Assembly (NCBI RefSeq): GCF_008923185.1
Contig: NZ_WBMT01000002.1
Coordinates: 571,813-635,812 of the forward strand
Length of the DNA stretch: 64,000 nt
Reading direction: 5' to 3'
DNA from: Actinomadura rudentiformis
GTDB taxonomy: Bacteria > Actinomycetota > Actinomycetes > Streptosporangiales > Streptosporangiaceae
Shown here: positions 231 to 5,347 of the stretch, piece by piece
Numbering within the stretch: position 1 is the first letter of the stretch
How the letters are laid out: each line of letters opens with the position of its first letter
Position numbers and translations under genes: made by a program
The notes under the pieces: generated by a model
Seen by the model: only the letters and a program-made list of their open reading frames with translations
Databases searched by the model: none
What the model was told of the DNA's origin: nothing

Positions 231-1100
231 TCAACCCGCCCATCGCTCCGCGTTGACCCGATGGATGAATTCGATCGATTGCTGCGCATCGAGGCTGCGT
301 TCGACCAACCACTGGAACTCGCGCCGATATTCGTGAGCCAGGGTCTCGTCCTGGATCTGGCTGGATGTCCGGCTCTCTATGTGGACCATCGCCGGGAATT
401 GGACCTCATACGCGGGGGCGTATTCCAGGAGGATGAACGTGCTCAAGCCTGCACCGTGATCCGCGTCCAGAGGCAGGACCAAGAGATCAACATTGGGCAA
501 CGCAGCCAATTCCACCAGCCGTTCCAATTGCTGACGCATAACGCCGTTGTCACCCACACGGCGCAGTAGGACGGCTTCGTCGAGCACGACGGTCAGCGGC
601 AGCGAACGCGGCGGCTCGATCAGCTGCTGGCGCCGGAGGCGGACCTGCACGTAGCGCTCGATGGCTGCGGGTGGGCGCGGCATGACTTCGTCCCAGCCGA
701 GAATGAGGCGACGGGCATAGCCCTCGGTCTGCAGGAGACCGTTGACGACCTGGCTCTCGAACGCCAGCACCGAGTCGGCTTCGTCCTCCAGCGCGATGTA
801 CGCGGCCTGGTCGTCTCGCAGTTCCGGATAGTCGCCCCACCAGCCCTTTTTGCTCGCTGCCTCCGCCAGTGCGAGCAACTCCCCACGGATCCGCTCCGTC
901 GCCCCGTACAGCTTGAGCATGCGCTTGAGGTCGGACTCCCGGACCCCGATGCGCGCCGTCTCGATGCGGCTCACCTTGGAGGCCGACCAGCCCAGCCGCC
1001 ATCCGACGTCATCCGTGCTCAACTCGACTTCCTCGCGGAGTCGTCGCAAGGCAACGCCCAGCCGCCGCTGACGAACGGTCGAAGCTCGCGCCGTGGGCAT
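231..1100 (-). CDS. HTH (XRE) regulator with DUF5753 domain, WhiJ-like, module 1
   Basis: Predicted DNA-binding protein of 289 residues. An XRE-type helix-turn-helix covers about residues 13-66 (LSTDDVGWRLGWSASKVSRI is the recognition region). A DUF5753 domain fills the rest, with the family hallmarks GWWGDY near residue 86 and GLLQTEGYAR near 117. I chose ATG 1100 because GGAG lies 6 bases upstream and the length then matches the module 2 regulator (288 aa). The frame stays open to 1274, but ATG 1112 has no ribosome site. In Streptomyces such proteins (WhiJ type) act with small DUF397 partners in developmental control. It is divergent from the cyclase-like gene at 1547, and two candidate operators lie between them. 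Family assignment is firm; the regulatory target is inferred. Confidence 0.85.
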   Translation of the reverse strand: MPTARASTVRQRRLGVALRRLREEVELSTDDVGWRLGWSASKVSRIETARIGVRESDLKRMLKLYGATERIRGELLALAEAASKKGWWGDYPELRDDQAAYIALEDEADSVLAFESQVVNGLLQTEGYARRLILGWDEVMPRPPAAIERYVQVRLRRQQLIEPPRSLPLTVVLDEAVLLRRVGDNGVMRQQLERLVELAALPNVDLLVLPLDADHGAGLSTFILLEYAPAYEVQFPAMVHIESRTSSQIQDETLAHEYRREFQWLVERSLDAQQSIEFIHRVNAERWAG

Positions 1101-1191
1101 CCCGGACTCCATGGAGATCCGGCCGACAATGGACGCCGGCCACCGGTTGTCGACTTGTCTGGTCGTATGGAATCTGTTGAGTCGTCTTACT

Positions 1192-1216
1192 CTGCAACTG
1201 ACGCTGCACGTTGCAG
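1192..1216. promoter_or_regulatory. Candidate operator, site 1 (25-bp dyad)
   Basis: Perfect 7-bp inverted arms, CTGCAAC at 1192-1198 and GTTGCAG at 1210-1216, with an 11-base spacer. The site fits the consensus CTGYA-N5-C-N2-TGCA-N-GTTRCAS shared with 1318-1342 and 3688-3712. It sits 92 bases upstream of the HTH start. Binding by the HTH/DUF5753 protein is inferred from position and recurrence. Confidence 0.55.
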
Positions 1217-1317
1217 TCTTTAGATTATGCCACCACCAGCGGTACGTGTGAGTCCTTGGAGACGTGGACTTCAAGACCGAATGTAACCGTCGAGATAGGT
1301 TCTGCTGGACCCGTTGA

Positions 1318-1342
1318 CTGCATGAGGCCGTGCATGTTGCAC
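1318..1342. promoter_or_regulatory. Candidate operator, site 2 (25-bp)
   Basis: Starts CTGCA and ends GTTGCAC with the same 25-base length as sites 1 and 3; 17 of 25 positions equal site 1. It includes a tight palindrome GTGCA-TGT-TGCAC at 1330-1342. Its right end contains TTGCAC, a possible -35 for the rightward cyclase-like gene, so a bound regulator would block that promoter. Confidence 0.5.
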
Positions 1343-1367
1343 GACCGCGTTTTATGAGGCATATAAG
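1337..1367 (+). promoter_or_regulatory. Candidate promoter of cyclase-like gene 1
   Basis: TTGCAC at 1337-1342 and TATAAG at 1362-1367 are separated by 19 bases; CATATA at 1360 would give 17. The -35 overlaps operator site 2. The leader to the TTG start would be about 170 bases. Confidence 0.35.
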
Positions 1368-1546
1368 ACAGTAAGGGGAGTACGGACGTCCTGGAAACTC
1401 CGGGACGCATCACGCGAGCGGTGCCCGCGTACAGCAACGAGGCGGTTACCGGGCCACGCCACGACTGTGGCGATGACCTCCACCTGTGGCGACCTTCTTC
1501 AACCGGGGACGGGCCGGGATCCGACCGGCCGATTGAGAGGGACACC

Positions 1547-2182
1547 TTGAGCGGCAGCCTTCGCGGGCCCCTTCACCGCAGCATTCTGGCACTGGACCTC
1601 GAACGTTCGTCCGCCCGGAACAACCTCATCAAGGTGGAGCAGCGCCGCGAGCTCTACCACGTACTTCGAGAGGCGATGAGGGCTGCCGGCATCGACGAAC
1701 ATTATTGCGAACCGATCGCGGACCGTGGCGATGGTGTGCTCGTTCTCGTGCACCCGGTCGACGAAGTCCCGAAGTCGCGGCTCCTTGTGCCGCTGATCCC
1801 CGAATTGACGAGATTGCTTGTCGATTACAATGACGCACTGCCCGTAGCGGAACGTGCGCTTCGCCAGTTGAGGATGCGCGCGGTGGTCCACGCCGGTGAT
1901 CTCCTCTGTGACGATCACGGCCTTTTCGGCACCGAACTGGACGCGGCCATCCGACTTCTGGACTCCGACGTGGTCCGAGAACTCCTGCGGGAGACCACGA
2001 CTCCGCTCGTCCTGGTCGTCTCACAGCAGATCTACGAGTCGATCGTCATTCACGGATACGATGGCATCTCCCCCGAGTCCTACCACCGCGCCGTCGAGGT
2101 TCACGTCTGCGGACTTACCCGCCACGGGTGGCTGCACGTCCCAGCGGGTCACGGCCAGCCGATCCCCATAACTGCGGCCTGA
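1547..2182 (+). CDS. Class III nucleotidyl-cyclase-like protein, module 1
   Basis: Stand-alone protein of 211 residues that resembles the class III nucleotidyl cyclase fold. Visible landmarks are ILALDLERSS (metal Asp of the first strand), DRGDGVLVL (hairpin with the second metal Asp) and AVVHAGDLLCDDHGLFGTEL followed by DAAIRLL. The last aligns with the VNxAxRL motif: the Arg is kept but the Asn is Asp, and the usual substrate Lys before GDG is missing. Substrate and activity therefore cannot be assumed. I chose TTG 1547 (GAGAGGG 6 bases upstream) because MSGSLRGPLHRSILALDLE then matches the N-terminus of the paralogue at 2851-3513. It is divergent from an HTH/DUF5753 gene and followed by a DUF397 gene. 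No effector domain is fused or adjacent. Confidence 0.65.
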   Translation: MSGSLRGPLHRSILALDLERSSARNNLIKVEQRRELYHVLREAMRAAGIDEHYCEPIADRGDGVLVLVHPVDEVPKSRLLVPLIPELTRLLVDYNDALPVAERALRQLRMRAVVHAGDLLCDDHGLFGTELDAAIRLLDSDVVRELLRETTTPLVLVVSQQIYESIVIHGYDGISPESYHRAVEVHVCGLTRHGWLHVPAGHGQPIPITAA

Positions 2183-2539
2183 ACTCCAGCCTGCCTTCGG
2201 CATATGAAGCGGCGGAAATGTTATTTCAGCCACCTTCCGCACAATGCTGTCCCTGGTGAGCCATAGCCACTACCGTCCACCCAGACACTCCTCCCATACG
2301 GGCACTTCTCGCCCAAGCGTTTCGTCCCGGGACCAAGGCCTACTTGATCCGCCCACCCACAGCCTGAACGGGACGTCCCAGCAGTGGGGGGCATGTATTC
2401 GGCCTACCGGAAATAACGTTTCGGCAAAAGCGCTATCCCTACGCCACCGTAACCTGCCAGTCTCCCTTCGTCCGGGCACTCCGTCCCGGCTGAGGCCCGG
2501 GATGGCAGCCGCCTTCCCACAGCATCAAGGGGTGATGAA
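2183..2539. other. Intergenic stretch between cyclase-like gene 1 and the DUF397 gene
   Basis: No coding frame here has an actinobacterial look and I see no operator copy. The region is less GC-biased than its flanks and has short inverted repeats, such as GCGG/CCGC around 2210-2240. It may carry a separate promoter for the DUF397 gene. Confidence 0.4.
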
Positions 2540-2797
2540 GTGGCGGCTGCCAACGCCCTTTCTCCTTCTGCCTTTTCCAACAGAGGTTCTAGAGCTGCGA
2601 AGCAGCTCACCCCGTGGAAGAAGAGCAGAGCCTGCCAGGCGAGCAATGGGTGCGTGGAAATGGCGAGCTTCGCCTTGGGAACAGCTGGGGCGCGGGACAG
2701 CGTGCTCGGCCAGGAAAGCCCAGTCCTGACATTCACACAGCCCGAGGTGCGCGCCCTATTCAGGAGAATCAAAGCCGGAGATCTCGACCTTCACTGA
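2540..2797 (+). CDS. DUF397 protein, module 1
   Basis: Small protein of 85 residues with the DUF397 pattern. W-KKS starts the domain, GCVEMASF is the central strand, ARDS follows, then SPVLTFTQPEVRALFRRIKA and GDLDLH at the end. The GTG start has AAGGGG 7 bases upstream. The first 25 residues (Ser/Ala-rich) are longer than in the two other DUF397 proteins here. DUF397 proteins are usually encoded beside HTH/DUF5753 regulators and are thought to work with them, possibly as antagonists or antitoxin-like partners. Here the partner would be the regulator at 231-1100, although the cyclase-like gene lies between them. Confidence 0.8.
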   Translation: MAAANALSPSAFSNRGSRAAKQLTPWKKSRACQASNGCVEMASFALGTAGARDSVLGQESPVLTFTQPEVRALFRRIKAGDLDLH

Positions 2798-2850
2798 ATA
2801 CGGCGGACGAGGAATAGCAGGCCCGCGAAGCCCATTCTCACGTCCCGGTG

Positions 2851-3513
2851 CTAGGCGGCGGTGTGGTCGAGGCCGGTGAAGGTGTGCGGGTCCTGAGGGA
2901 TGAGTTTCAGGGCCTCGGTGGGGACGTGAACCCAGCCTTGGCGGCGGCGGCCCGCCACTTTGACGCCGACGTCGGGGTGGTAGGTCTCCGGGGAGATGCC
3001 GTCGTAACCGTGTTTGACGATGGTCTGGTAGATGTCCTCGGAGACGACCAGGACGAGCGGTGCCGGTACGGATTCGAGGCACTTCTTGAGGGCTCTGGCG
3101 TCGAGGAGGCGGCAGGCGACGTCGAGGGCCTCGCCGAAGTAGCCGTACGCGTCGCGGTGGATCTCCCCGGCGTGGACGACGGCGCGGAGGCGGAGGCCAC
3201 GGCGCGGCCGTTCGTCGGGCGGAAGGCCCAGGTTGTAGTCGACCAGCTGGCGGGCGAGCTCGGGGATGAGGCGGCTCAGCAGGTAGGTCTTGGGGACGCC
3301 GTCGTCGGGCTGGATCAGCGCGAGCACCCCGTCGCCGCGGTCCTCGAACGGATCGCGCTGCCGCGGGCCGATGCCGGCGCGGGCCATGGCCTGGTCCAGC
3401 ATGCGGTAGACGTGCCCGCGCAGCTCGCCTTTGATCGGGTTGGTCCGGAGCGGACTCGTCGAGCGTTCCATGTCGACGGCCAAGATGCTCCGGTGCAGCG
3501 GGAGATTGTCCAC
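2851..3513 (-). CDS. Class III nucleotidyl-cyclase-like protein, module 2
   Basis: A 220-residue paralogue of the protein at 1547-2182; both share LHRSILA-D-ERS, DRGDGVL, LLS/VPLIPEL, LVDYN, RAVVHAG and HGYDGISPE. Metal-ligand candidates are the Asp in SILAVDMERS and the second Asp of DRGDGVL. The ALDVACRLL segment keeps the transition-state Arg but again has Asp where active cyclases have Asn. The GTG start at 3513 follows GGAGGGG at 4-5 bases. The gene is divergent from the module 2 HTH gene and its 3' end converges with the module 1 DUF397 gene. No transmembrane segment or output domain is present, so it is likely cytoplasmic. Fold assignment is by motif; function is unknown. Confidence 0.65.
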   Translation of the reverse strand: MDNLPLHRSILAVDMERSTSPLRTNPIKGELRGHVYRMLDQAMARAGIGPRQRDPFEDRGDGVLALIQPDDGVPKTYLLSRLIPELARQLVDYNLGLPPDERPRRGLRLRAVVHAGEIHRDAYGYFGEALDVACRLLDARALKKCLESVPAPLVLVVSEDIYQTIVKHGYDGISPETYHPDVGVKVAGRRRQGWVHVPTEALKLIPQDPHTFTGLDHTAA

Positions 3514-3676
3514 CGGACCCCTCCATTCTCCGGCCGGTCGGCCGGCAACCTTCGAGGGAAGACCACATGGTTGTGATCTCGGATGACCCGGCGAGGCGCC
3601 GTTGCCCGCCTTCGTCCGACCGGGCTTGTGACCCCGTCGAACACCCGGCCGTTCTGATGATCGGCCGCTTGGTTAG

Positions 3677-3705
3677 ATTGTGAACATCTGTAGGTTGCTG
3701 TGCAA
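3677..3705 (-). promoter_or_regulatory. Candidate promoter of cyclase-like gene 2
   Basis: On the minus strand TTGCAC (3705-3700) and CACAAT (3682-3677) are separated by 17 bases. The -35 lies inside operator site 3, as the -35 of cyclase-like gene 1 lies inside site 2. Confidence 0.35.
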
Positions 3706-3712
3706 GTTACAG
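3688..3712. promoter_or_regulatory. Candidate operator, site 3 (25-bp dyad)
   Basis: Imperfect 11-bp arms around a TGT centre, CTGTAGGTTGC and GCAAGTTACAG, with 9 of 11 positions complementary. It has the same 25-base frame as sites 1 and 2. Relative to site 1 the fourth base changes C to T and its partner changes G to A, a compensating pair. It lies 123 bases upstream of the HTH start. Confidence 0.55.
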
Positions 3713-3834
3713 TGTCATGTACGGTGACGAATCCTTCGGCGCCGTAGAAACATCGCCACCCGGCTTGCGTCGTCGCCCCCCTCCCGGGGCAGACTGCGCA
3801 CAAAGCAACCCGTTGGGCGGGAGAGGCCGCAGCC

Positions 3835-4701
3835 ATGAGCGCATCCCCACGTCCTTCCGTCCGGCAGCGGCGCCTGGCGGCCGAGCTCCGCAGGCTCCGC
3901 GAGGAGCGGCGGCTGACGGGAGACGACGTCGCAGCCGAGCTGTCGTGGAGCACGGCGAAGGTGTCCCGGATCGAGAACGCGCGCACCGGCGCCCGGATCT
4001 CCGACGTCCGCCGGCTCCTGCGTCTCTACCAGGTGAACGGGCAGCACCACGACGAGCTCATCGCGCTCGCGGAGGACGCGGCGGAGAAGGGCTGGTGGGA
4101 GGAGTACCGCGATCTGATCGGCGGCTATCCGGACTTCATCGCGATGGAGGCCGAGGCCAACTCGATCAAACAGTGGGAGACCCACACGATGCCGGGCCTG
4201 CTGCAGACCGAGGAGTACGCCCGCGAGGTCATCTCCGGCTGGAATGCGATCGCCACCATTCCACCCCGTGAGATCGACCGCCGGATCGAGGTGCGGATGC
4301 GCCGTCAGGAGATCCTGCGGCAGTCCCCCCGCCCCGCCGAACTGTCGGTGGTCATCGACGAATCGGTGCTCCGACGGCGGGTCGGTGGCACATCGGTAAT
4401 GCGGGGCCAAATTGAACACTTGCTCGCCATCACAGAACTCAACAATGTACGTCTTCGAGTGCTGCCCCTGGAAGGCGCCCATCCGGTGATGGAGGGATCT
4501 TTCATACTCCTTGAATTCGCCCCTGTACACGACGTGATCTTTCCCGATGTCGTGCACACGGAGAGCCTGGCGGTGAGCCATTTTGAGGACGAGATGACCA
4601 CGCACATGTATCGTCTCGCCTACCAGGCTCTATGCGACTCCGCCTTGGACTACGCGGATTCCAAACGGTTCATTGCGGCGTCACTCGGGCTCTGGCGATA
4701 A
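3835..4701 (+). CDS. HTH (XRE) regulator with DUF5753 domain, WhiJ-like, module 2
   Basis: Regulator of 288 residues, a paralogue of the 231-1100 product. The XRE helix-turn-helix spans about residues 12-65 (LTGDDVAAELSWSTAKVSRI). DUF5753 follows, with GWWEEY, MPGLLQTEEYAREVI, a basic RMRRQEIL stretch and VLPLEGAHPVMEGSFILLEF. The ATG follows a GGGAGAGG stretch about 10 bases upstream. Two DUF397 genes lie downstream on the same strand, the classical WhiJ-like arrangement. It is divergent from a cyclase-like gene, as in module 1. Family assignment is clear; that it represses the divergent promoter through site 3 is inference. Confidence 0.88.
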   Translation: MSASPRPSVRQRRLAAELRRLREERRLTGDDVAAELSWSTAKVSRIENARTGARISDVRRLLRLYQVNGQHHDELIALAEDAAEKGWWEEYRDLIGGYPDFIAMEAEANSIKQWETHTMPGLLQTEEYAREVISGWNAIATIPPREIDRRIEVRMRRQEILRQSPRPAELSVVIDESVLRRRVGGTSVMRGQIEHLLAITELNNVRLRVLPLEGAHPVMEGSFILLEFAPVHDVIFPDVVHTESLAVSHFEDEMTTHMYRLAYQALCDSALDYADSKRFIAASLGLWR

Positions 4702-4740
4702 GAAATCTGTCGCTAACCTATCTCACCCAAAGGACGTCTC

Positions 4741-4959
4741 GTGACCTCCGCTGAAAACGATCCGATCTCCTGGCGGAAGGGCAGCCGTTGCGCTGCCAAC
4801 GGTACCTGCGTGGAAATCGCAGGCGCCTATGCCCCAGGTACCATCGCCGCGCGCGACGCCAAGCACGGCGAGGCCAGCCCTGTGTTGCTCTTCTCACCCG
4901 GGGAATGGCGTACGTTCACCGATCGGATCAAGAGCGGGGAGCTCGACCTGTCGCGCTGA
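4741..4959 (+). CDS. DUF397 protein, first of two in module 2
   Basis: Protein of 72 residues with the DUF397 signature: ISWRKGS, GTCVEIAG, IAARDAKHG, SPVLLFSPGEWRTFTDRIKSG and ELDLSR. It starts at a GTG 39 bases after the HTH stop, so the two genes are probably co-transcribed. Likely the dedicated partner of the preceding regulator. Confidence 0.88.
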   Translation: MTSAENDPISWRKGSRCAANGTCVEIAGAYAPGTIAARDAKHGEASPVLLFSPGEWRTFTDRIKSGELDLSR

Positions 4960-5125
4960 CACCACCCGCCACCCACGCCGGGGCGCTCGCCGGAGAAGAC
5001 TTCCGGCGGCGCCCCGTCGCCGTACATTGGCCACCTCTGTCCAGGTGATCTTTCCGGCCATGGGGTACAACATGGTGTGGCAACGACGCCGGTTACCTCC
5101 CAACCATGCTCCAGAAGGAGGTGGG

Positions 5126-5347
5126 ATGCGGCCCGACTCGACATCCCCGGCCCACTGGCGGACGAGCGCGCACAGCGTGGCGAACGGCACGTGCGTGGAG
5201 ATCGCCCGGCTCGCCGGCCCGATCGGTCCGGCGATCGGGATACGCGACAGCACGCACGGTGGGAACGGTCCGATGCTCACCTTCGGCCCCACCGAATGGA
5301 GGGCGTTCACCGCCCGAGCGAGGGCAGGCGGATTCGACCTGTCCTGA
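5126..5347 (+). CDS. DUF397 protein, second of two in module 2
   Basis: Protein of 73 residues. The ATG at 5126 follows a near-perfect AAGGAGGTGGG ribosome site. The DUF397 pattern is clear: HWRTSAHSVANGTCVEIARL, IRDSTHG, GPMLTFGPTEWRAFTARARA and GGFDLS. It lies 166 bases after the first DUF397 gene. The Lys/Arg-Ser step of the domain start is Thr-Ser here and the C-terminus lacks the usual acidic Glu. It may be a diverging duplicate. Confidence 0.85.
   Translation: MRPDSTSPAHWRTSAHSVANGTCVEIARLAGPIGPAIGIRDSTHGGNGPMLTFGPTEWRAFTARARAGGFDLS

Follow-up and report, generated by a model that had tools for sequence, protein, structure and literature searches.

A 64,000-nucleotide stretch of Actinomadura rudentiformis DNA (contig NZ_WBMT01000002.1, positions 571,813 to 635,812; hereafter the window) was analyzed for two neighboring gene modules, in each of which a regulator gene encoding an XRE-type helix-turn-helix (HTH) and DUF5753 protein lies divergent from a gene for a class III cyclase-like protein, accompanied by DUF397 genes. 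Seven genes lie within positions 231–5347 (two HTH/DUF5753, two cyclase-like and three DUF397; Table 1), and both modules, with one DUF397 gene in module 1 and two in module 2, are present as the initial annotation had described them, with Pfam support for all components except the cyclase-like proteins. DUF5753 was matched at E-values of 3.4e-39 and 2.4e-50 in the two regulators, and DUF397 at 7.7e-10, 1.5e-14 and 9.8e-17 in the three partner genes, so that both modules contain an XRE-DUF397 pair, defined as an HTH and DUF5753 protein with a nearby DUF397 gene. Against the Sco1979 regulator model (NCBIfam, cut-off 350 bits), the window HTH proteins scored 188 and 238 bits. The AT-rich intergenic regions and the mirrored gene order noted earlier were also confirmed, the former from GC contents of 0.52 (1126–1375) and 0.60 (3501–3750), below most of the neighborhood, and the latter from the coordinates. 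Identity between modules was 54% for the cyclase-like pair and 47% for the HTH pair; simple tandem duplication was ruled out because the order is mirrored and the modules fall in different subclades of both the cyclase and the HTH trees.

Table 1. Genes and predicted regulatory sites of the two modules (window positions)
Feature	Position	Strand	Basis and remarks
Module 1 regulator, XRE-HTH (HTH_31) and DUF5753	231..1100	-	Pfam; start ATG 1100 (MPTAR...) or 1112
Predicted operator 1a, TGCACGTTGCA	1205..1215		HTH-gene side; TGCA-N3-TGCA occurs just twice in the 64 kb window, here and at 1b
Predicted operator 1b, TGCATGTTGCA	1331..1341		Cyclase-gene side; the other TGCA-N3-TGCA site of the window
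Predicted cyclase-1 promoter	1337..1365	+	-35 TTGCAC 1337-1342 (operator 1b right half), 17 bp, CATATA 1360-1365
Cyclase-like protein 1, class III cyclase fold	1547..2182	+	TTG start at 1547 agrees with the 211-amino-acid database entry P0001
Module 1 DUF397 gene	2540..2797	+	Pfam; 3' of the cyclase-like gene, as in L049-L052
Cyclase-like protein 2	2851..3513	-	
Predicted cyclase-2 promoter	3677..3705	-	-35 TTGCAC 3700-3705, 17 bp, -10 CACAAT 3677-3682; layout shared by L057, L069, L079
Predicted operator 2, 25-bp palindrome around TTGC-N3-GCAA	3688..3712		Core 3695-3705; only such core in the window
Module 2 regulator, XRE-HTH (HTH_31) and DUF5753	3835..4701	+	Pfam; trees, gene contexts
DUF397 gene 2a	4741..4959	+	Pfam
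DUF397 gene 2b	5126..5347	+	Pfam; ATG 5126 start after AAGGAGG, read by eye

Linkage of the cyclase-like gene to regulator and partner genes

Relatives of the cyclase-like proteins were taken as the best 80 of 99 from a scan of a contig collection, and the first 58 (loci L049–L106, at least 40% identity) were treated as the subfamily; L107 (41% identity) was kept in the distant group although the subfamily row L103 stands at 40%. At least 1 kb of upstream sequence was present for 56 of the 58 subfamily loci, and an opposite-strand DUF5753 gene was found within 1.5 kb upstream at 34, giving 34 domains in 84 kb of this divergent slot versus 14 in 1508 kb elsewhere in the flanks, a 43-fold excess (binomial p 1e-32, which is not a true probability, the loci being related). 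DUF397 genes lay within 2.5 kb at 28 of the 34 DUF5753-linked loci versus 1 of the other 24 subfamily loci. The initial annotation had expected cyclase-like homologues to be enriched near HTH/DUF5753 or DUF397 genes, and these counts show strong enrichment. Among the distant loci, the divergent arrangement was seen in 1 of 22, and L107 has a co-oriented DUF5753 gene.

The window's own genome (10.7 Mb) contained 11 cyclase-like, 28 DUF5753 and 35 DUF397 matches. Chance adjacency in an HTH-rich genome was ruled out by this DUF5753 density together with the slot excess; the pairing of the cyclase-like gene with HTH/DUF5753 is not chance, because over half of the subfamily loci carry the divergent gene, far above other flank positions. 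A third divergent module was found in the same genome (C2:109147-111675), as well as a looser arrangement whose cyclase match is weak (C30:81090-84636). At L067 and L099, two consecutive HTH/DUF5753 genes of the cyclase-linked clade adjoin one cyclase gene.

Phylogeny of cyclases and regulators

In the cyclase tree, module 1 groups with five loci (6/6 divergent) and module 2 falls in a 29-row clade (85/82) with 27 divergent rows, the exceptions being L061, at a contig end, and L088; a third large clade (26 rows) has DUF5753 partners that are divergent in three cases and co-oriented in two. For the HTH tree, loci were picked by their cyclase, which favors linked rows, and 27 of the 28 own-genome DUF5753 matches were used after a fragment on C31 was dropped. 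Of the 35 divergent partners in the fetched loci, 30 form a single clade (34 rows, 100/99) together with both window copies and two more HTH copies near linked ones; the other 23 own-genome HTH/DUF5753 proteins are all absent from it. Outside this main clade lie the partners of L081, L094, L098, L102 and L126. A second clade (100/98) joins the partners of L081, L086 and L107 to two own-genome proteins, the third copy and the one on C30.

Predicted operator and promoters

Intergenic regions were compared for 32 linked loci, L081, L094, L098, L102 and L126 being dropped as their HTH proteins fall outside the main clade. The motif TGCA-N3-TGCA occurred 49 times, in 27 of the 32 regions (12.5 kb), against a Markov expectation of 0.22 and a maximum of 2 over 1000 resamplings. 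It was found in 0/25 upstream regions of other own-genome HTH/DUF5753 genes and in 0/21 cyclase loci without DUF5753 (24 loci, less L061, L086 and L097), and the whole genome has 28 copies, two of them in module 1, versus 98 of the reversed pattern. The TTGC-N3-GCAA core of module 2 was present in 3 of 4 module-2-type intergenic regions and upstream of 7 of 9 cyclase-free HTH orthologues.

The right half of the cyclase-proximal TGCA-N3-TGCA site coincides with a predicted -35 hexamer, which reads TTGCAN in 22 of 27 loci and GTGCAC, ATGCAC or CTGCAC in the other five. A hexamer nAnnnT followed it at a spacer of 17 (19 loci) or 18 (7 loci), 26 of 27 in total, and at any other offset from 20 to 59 in at most 5 loci; of the 14 copies that were under 70% alike, nAnnnT stood at spacer 17 in 10. 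TTGCAN-17-nAnnnT was likewise found in all four of module 2 and its three relatives. Such a -35/-10 pair was found at 4 of 16 cyclase-free HTH loci, and at L163, whose HTH is sister to that of module 2, it resembles a leftover cyclase promoter, the gene itself being absent. This conserved placement of a predicted operator on a predicted -35 supports the earlier proposal that the HTH protein controls the cyclase-like gene.

At four loci from other genera (L198, L206, L207 and L208), an HTH relative stands beside a small divergent gene (53–77 amino acids) in place of the cyclase, with an operator-like site between the two, of the TTGC-N3-GCAA type in L208. The small gene of L208 had no Pfam match; such a gene is possibly another target of the same regulator lineage, to judge from the site. 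A wider-family cyclase paralogue in the window's own genome (G000:C15:135955-136509) has a TGCA-N3-TGCA site about 1.3 kb upstream (C15:137799), with no DUF5753 match on the contig.

Fold and residues of the cyclase-like protein

Neither cyclase-like protein matched a Pfam family at E ≤ 0.1, and the best sequence match in the PDB (E 0.055) was below significance; the nearest named relative of protein 1 was an Actinomadura protein at 79% identity. The fold is of class III cyclase type over almost the entire protein length (CyaC, Ma1120, 3mr7), so the label given earlier holds at the level of fold. Two aspartates, which we take to be the metal positions from the class III motif, were kept in 60/60 cyclase-like sequences, and arginine stood at the catalytic position in 58/60. 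The place of the catalytic asparagine (column matched to 3mr7 by alignment) was occupied by aspartate in 60/60, and of the positions expected to read the base, 57 was variable (E/V/I/T/A) and 124 was glycine. For residue counts in the wider loci, 20 of 22 were used (L121 and L126 dropped) together with six own-genome paralogues. Because the metal sites and the catalytic arginine are kept, the protein probably acts on a nucleoside triphosphate, and with an invariant aspartate in place of the catalytic asparagine, its substrate or product is perhaps unusual.

The conserved chromosomal site

As a converse test, we ran the profile of linked HTH proteins against 60 genomes from the genus, disregarding cyclases. 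Among 87 matches of at least 300 bits, 29 lay within 3 kb of a subfamily cyclase; subfamily cyclases of at least 200 bits in the same genomes were linked in 27 of 48 cases, and of six unlinked ones inspected, five adjoin two-component-like genes and one another divergent HTH/DUF5753 gene. All nine inspected cyclase-free HTH genes occupy one conserved site, flanked by nnr and alr and, at the opposite end, by glmS or its ABC-transporter neighbors. Pfam identified ACPS, YjeF/Carb_kinase and alanine racemase at L163, and glmS and an ABC ATPase in the window; the remaining genes were named by eye, and the acpS fragment at the window edge (1–213), itself without a Pfam match, was named by its likeness to the ACPS protein of L163.

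The cyclase-like gene stands at the same site in the window and at six other linked loci (acpS, nnr, alr or glmS flanks), and the nine inspected cyclase-free HTH proteins nest with the module 2 HTH (13 rows, 99/96). From the shared site and this nesting it follows that the HTH and DUF397 genes of module 2 form a conserved locus, to which a cyclase-like gene belongs in only some genomes; next to it, module 1 represents a second module that has diverged. Among the 60 genomes, two linked cyclases lie side by side only in the window's own. HTH-DUF397 loci without a cyclase were also seen in other genera. A PhoX-family phosphatase gene (Pfam PF05787; 5427–6869) separates module 2 from the ABC genes; a PhoX-like gene was also seen by eye at L201, and in 0/9 neighbor lists of the inspected cyclase-free HTH loci.

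Other neighbors of cyclase-like genes

Neighbor lists were produced with a codon-usage gene caller, which misses genes of low third-position GC content (GC3), such as part of module 1, and twenty neighbor genes were scanned with Pfam to check names assigned by eye. Cyclase-like genes are divergent from two-component genes at L076, L080, L083, L084, L087, L089, L095 and L100 and co-oriented with them at L101 and L104, with further loci of the divergent kind at L168, L169, L171–L173 and L205; neither DUF5753 nor DUF397 was detected in the fetched stretches of the divergent group. Pfam identified a histidine kinase and a response regulator at L083 and a histidine kinase at L101, the other two-component loci being named by eye. 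L086 has its cyclase behind a co-oriented DUF5753 gene, the cyclase of L093 is divergent from a protein with a weak, sub-cut-off HTH_31 match, and L061 and L097 were too close to a contig end to judge.

At L078, L092, L105 and L106, cyclase-like genes are divergent from genes for proteins of about 930–980 amino acids. By Pfam, that of L105 is an NB-ARC/TPR protein with no HTH domain at E ≤ 0.001, and a radical SAM gene lies beyond it; L092 has a convergent gene for an NB-ARC/TPR protein whose N-terminal stretch resembles wider-family cyclases. A large neighbor gene occurs in 7 of the 34 linked loci, all of one related group (L055, L059, L063, L064, L066, L071 and L075). Domain scanning of one copy (L064:2572-5178) identified it as an NNH1-NACHT protein, which is a STAND NTPase of conflict type. 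When the called genes lying up to 4 kb from the 34 linked loci were clustered, none apart from HTH and cyclase recurred in more than 11 loci; the three recurrent neighbors that were domain-scanned were NACHT, MFS and AMP-binding proteins.

Discussion

The favored reading, which is judged rather probable, is that each module is a WhiJ/BldB-type (XRE-DUF397) circuit regulating a class III cyclase-like enzyme, with the HTH protein probably acting as repressor. From the computed domains, fold, linkage, clades and operator and promoter layout, DNA binding, the sign of control, the DUF397 role and enzyme activity are inferred as follows. The HTH/DUF5753 protein would bind the short palindrome between the two genes, and the operator near the cyclase gene would cover the predicted -35, holding that gene low, repression being predicted because the operator is centered at about -36, on the -35; the HTH protein would regulate its own gene through the HTH-side site or, in module 2, through the only site present. 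The DUF397 protein probably binds the HTH protein and alters its activity, as proposed for WhiJ and BldB, and a signal read by DUF5753 or DUF397 would release the cyclase gene, whose enzyme would then make a nucleotide.

Several observations weigh against this reading. The dedicated pairing claimed in the initial annotation was not borne out: 58 of the 87 close HTH matches (in 56 genomes) had no subfamily cyclase within 3 kb, and the idea that the HTH lineage exists only with a cyclase was dropped on that count; a divergent DUF5753 gene within 1.5 kb was missing from 24 of the 58 cyclase loci, several of which have two-component or other regulators; and all nine inspected cyclase-free HTH loci retain DUF397 downstream (two genes in eight, one in L167). 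The DUF397 excess near cyclases relative to all flanks was weak (p 0.03), and the loci share descent, so their counts are not independent. The exact TGCA-N3-TGCA site was absent from 5 of the 32 intergenic regions (module 2, L057, L069, L079 and L082) and from the third own-genome module, which is among the 25 site-free upstream regions, and the TTGC-N3-GCAA core also occurred in 13 of 28 other linked intergenic regions. Module 1 of the window was the sole locus of 27 without a strict nAnnnT -10 (CATATA), its five orthologues having CATATT or CATGAT at that place. Because TGCA-N3-TGCA was carried by 8 of 10 HTH loci from other genera, just one of them with a cyclase, the predicted operator belongs to the regulator lineage and not to the cyclase, as far as site distribution indicates.

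The sign of control and the part of DUF397 are uncertain because the precedents, taken here and below from the accessible portions of the cited sources, differ. WhiJ as a repressor relieved by its DUF397 partner is a model cited in PMC6262351. WhiJ9, the best-studied precedent, speaks against repression: as an activator it binds between iosA and whiJ9, and the approximately 750-fold rise of iosA in a bldB mutant depends on it (PMC10294661). Scr1, which requires its DUF397 partner Scr2 for a positive effect (PMC6262351), points the same way. Modulation of the HTH protein by the DUF397 protein has been proposed in both sources.

Activation of the cyclase gene by the HTH protein, as by WhiJ9 for iosA, with DUF397 keeping the HTH protein inactive and the operator replacing a poor -35 and recruiting RNA polymerase, is less likely but deserves serious weight. 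The TTGCAN hexamers fit the usual -35 consensus, TTGACA, only moderately, and five of the 27 depart from TTGCAN; together with the WhiJ9/BldB precedent, this favors activation. The position of the site speaks for repression: WhiJ9 activates from three CGXXCTCAAC repeats in direct orientation, located 113 bp ahead of the iosA start (PMC10294661), whereas the palindromes predicted here sit on the -35 itself, and by eye the WhiJ9 consensus had no match in the present operators. Comparable weight, well short of the favored reading, is given to the possibility that the cyclase-like protein has no catalytic activity and, as a pseudoenzyme binding a nucleotide or the regulator, serves as a protein co-regulator. 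The invariant change of asparagine to aspartate and the variable or glycine base-reading positions fit this, and inactive cyclic nucleoside monophosphate (cNMP) cyclase domains are known from actinobacterial conflict systems (PMC7159879), but a pseudoenzyme would not need the metal aspartates or the arginine, kept in all 60 and in 58 of the sequences.

An anti-phage or other conflict system under HTH control, in which the cyclase-like enzyme signals to an effector (Pycsar-like or tied to a STAND NTPase), appears quite improbable; a conflict role was one of the options named in the initial annotation. The standalone class III cyclase fold, in which the base-reading positions are altered, would suit it, as would the NNH1-NACHT gene near 7 of the 34 linked loci (one scanned) and the NB-ARC/TPR proteins beside subfamily cyclases at L105 and L092. 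Neither cyclase-like protein had a match in PADLOC (2023 library) up to E 1, the NACHT gene, the only conflict-type neighbor seen beside linked loci, occurs just in a single related group, with no other neighbor in more than 11 of the 34, and the window and six other core-locus copies are flanked by acpS, nnr, alr or glmS instead. Very improbable is a type II toxin-antitoxin pair with DUF397 as toxin, the HTH protein as antitoxin and the cyclase-like gene hitch-hiking. Such a role has been proposed for DUF397-Xre pairs (PMC2701414), and the HTH-DUF397 genes persist cyclase-free at every inspected locus of that kind, but the DUF397 protein Scr2 was non-toxic when overexpressed (PMC6262351), and cyclase linkage and promoter-operator layout are conserved across deep divergence, unlike those of a hitch-hiker. 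It is conceivable but unlikely that the cyclase-like proteins make an unrecognized nucleotide signal that is itself the ligand of DUF5753 or DUF397, forming a closed second-messenger switch. Resemblance of the DUF5753 model to domains of the PLD superfamily, that of the archaeal chromatin protein TrmBL2 among them, is a lead only, and Foldseek with the HTH/DUF5753 model returned nothing at E ≤ 0.001.

Like the modules described here, iosA-whiJ9-bldB9 of Streptomyces venezuelae combines an HTH/XRE regulator, a DUF397 partner, a regulated neighbor and intergenic repeats, but the 15-kDa IosA resembles no solved structure (PMC10294661), where these modules have a cyclase-like neighbor. The abaA-whiJ-bldB clusters, for example SCO4544-SCO4543-SCO4542, share the theme of a WhiJ-like HTH protein, DUF397 and a variable third gene, which there is AbaA-like with an anti-sigma-like HATPase_c domain and here class III cyclase-like (PMC4255298, PMC10294661). 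With class III adenylyl and guanylyl cyclases (CyaC, Ma1120, 3mr7), the window proteins share the fold, two metal aspartates and catalytic arginine; they differ in the aspartate for catalytic asparagine, unconserved base-reading residues and the absence of a fused regulatory domain. Both cNMP cyclase domains and DUF397 also occur in actinobacterial VMAP-ternary conflict systems, but in those systems DUF397 genes occur independently of HTH genes, and VMAP or vWA components carry the cyclase domains as fusions; an HTH/DUF5753-cyclase pair was not found in the accessible text of that source (PMC7159879). A literature search for a link between cyclases and DUF397 or WhiJ, covering few subscription papers, found no HTH/DUF5753-DUF397-cyclase module described in the accessible portions (including PMC2701414, PMC10364602 and PMC4255298). 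WhiJ-like genes with DUF397 and AbaA-like neighbors are already well known.

Complex actinobacteria have many WhiJ- and BldB-like proteins, whose signals and targets are largely unknown. One lineage now gains a predicted target, with a predicted operator on a predicted promoter, and this target resembles a signal-making enzyme. Direct tests of HTH/DUF5753 and DUF397 action become possible, and may reveal an unusual nucleotide enzyme. If true, a closed second-messenger switch would supply the missing signal of WhiJ/BldB-type regulators.

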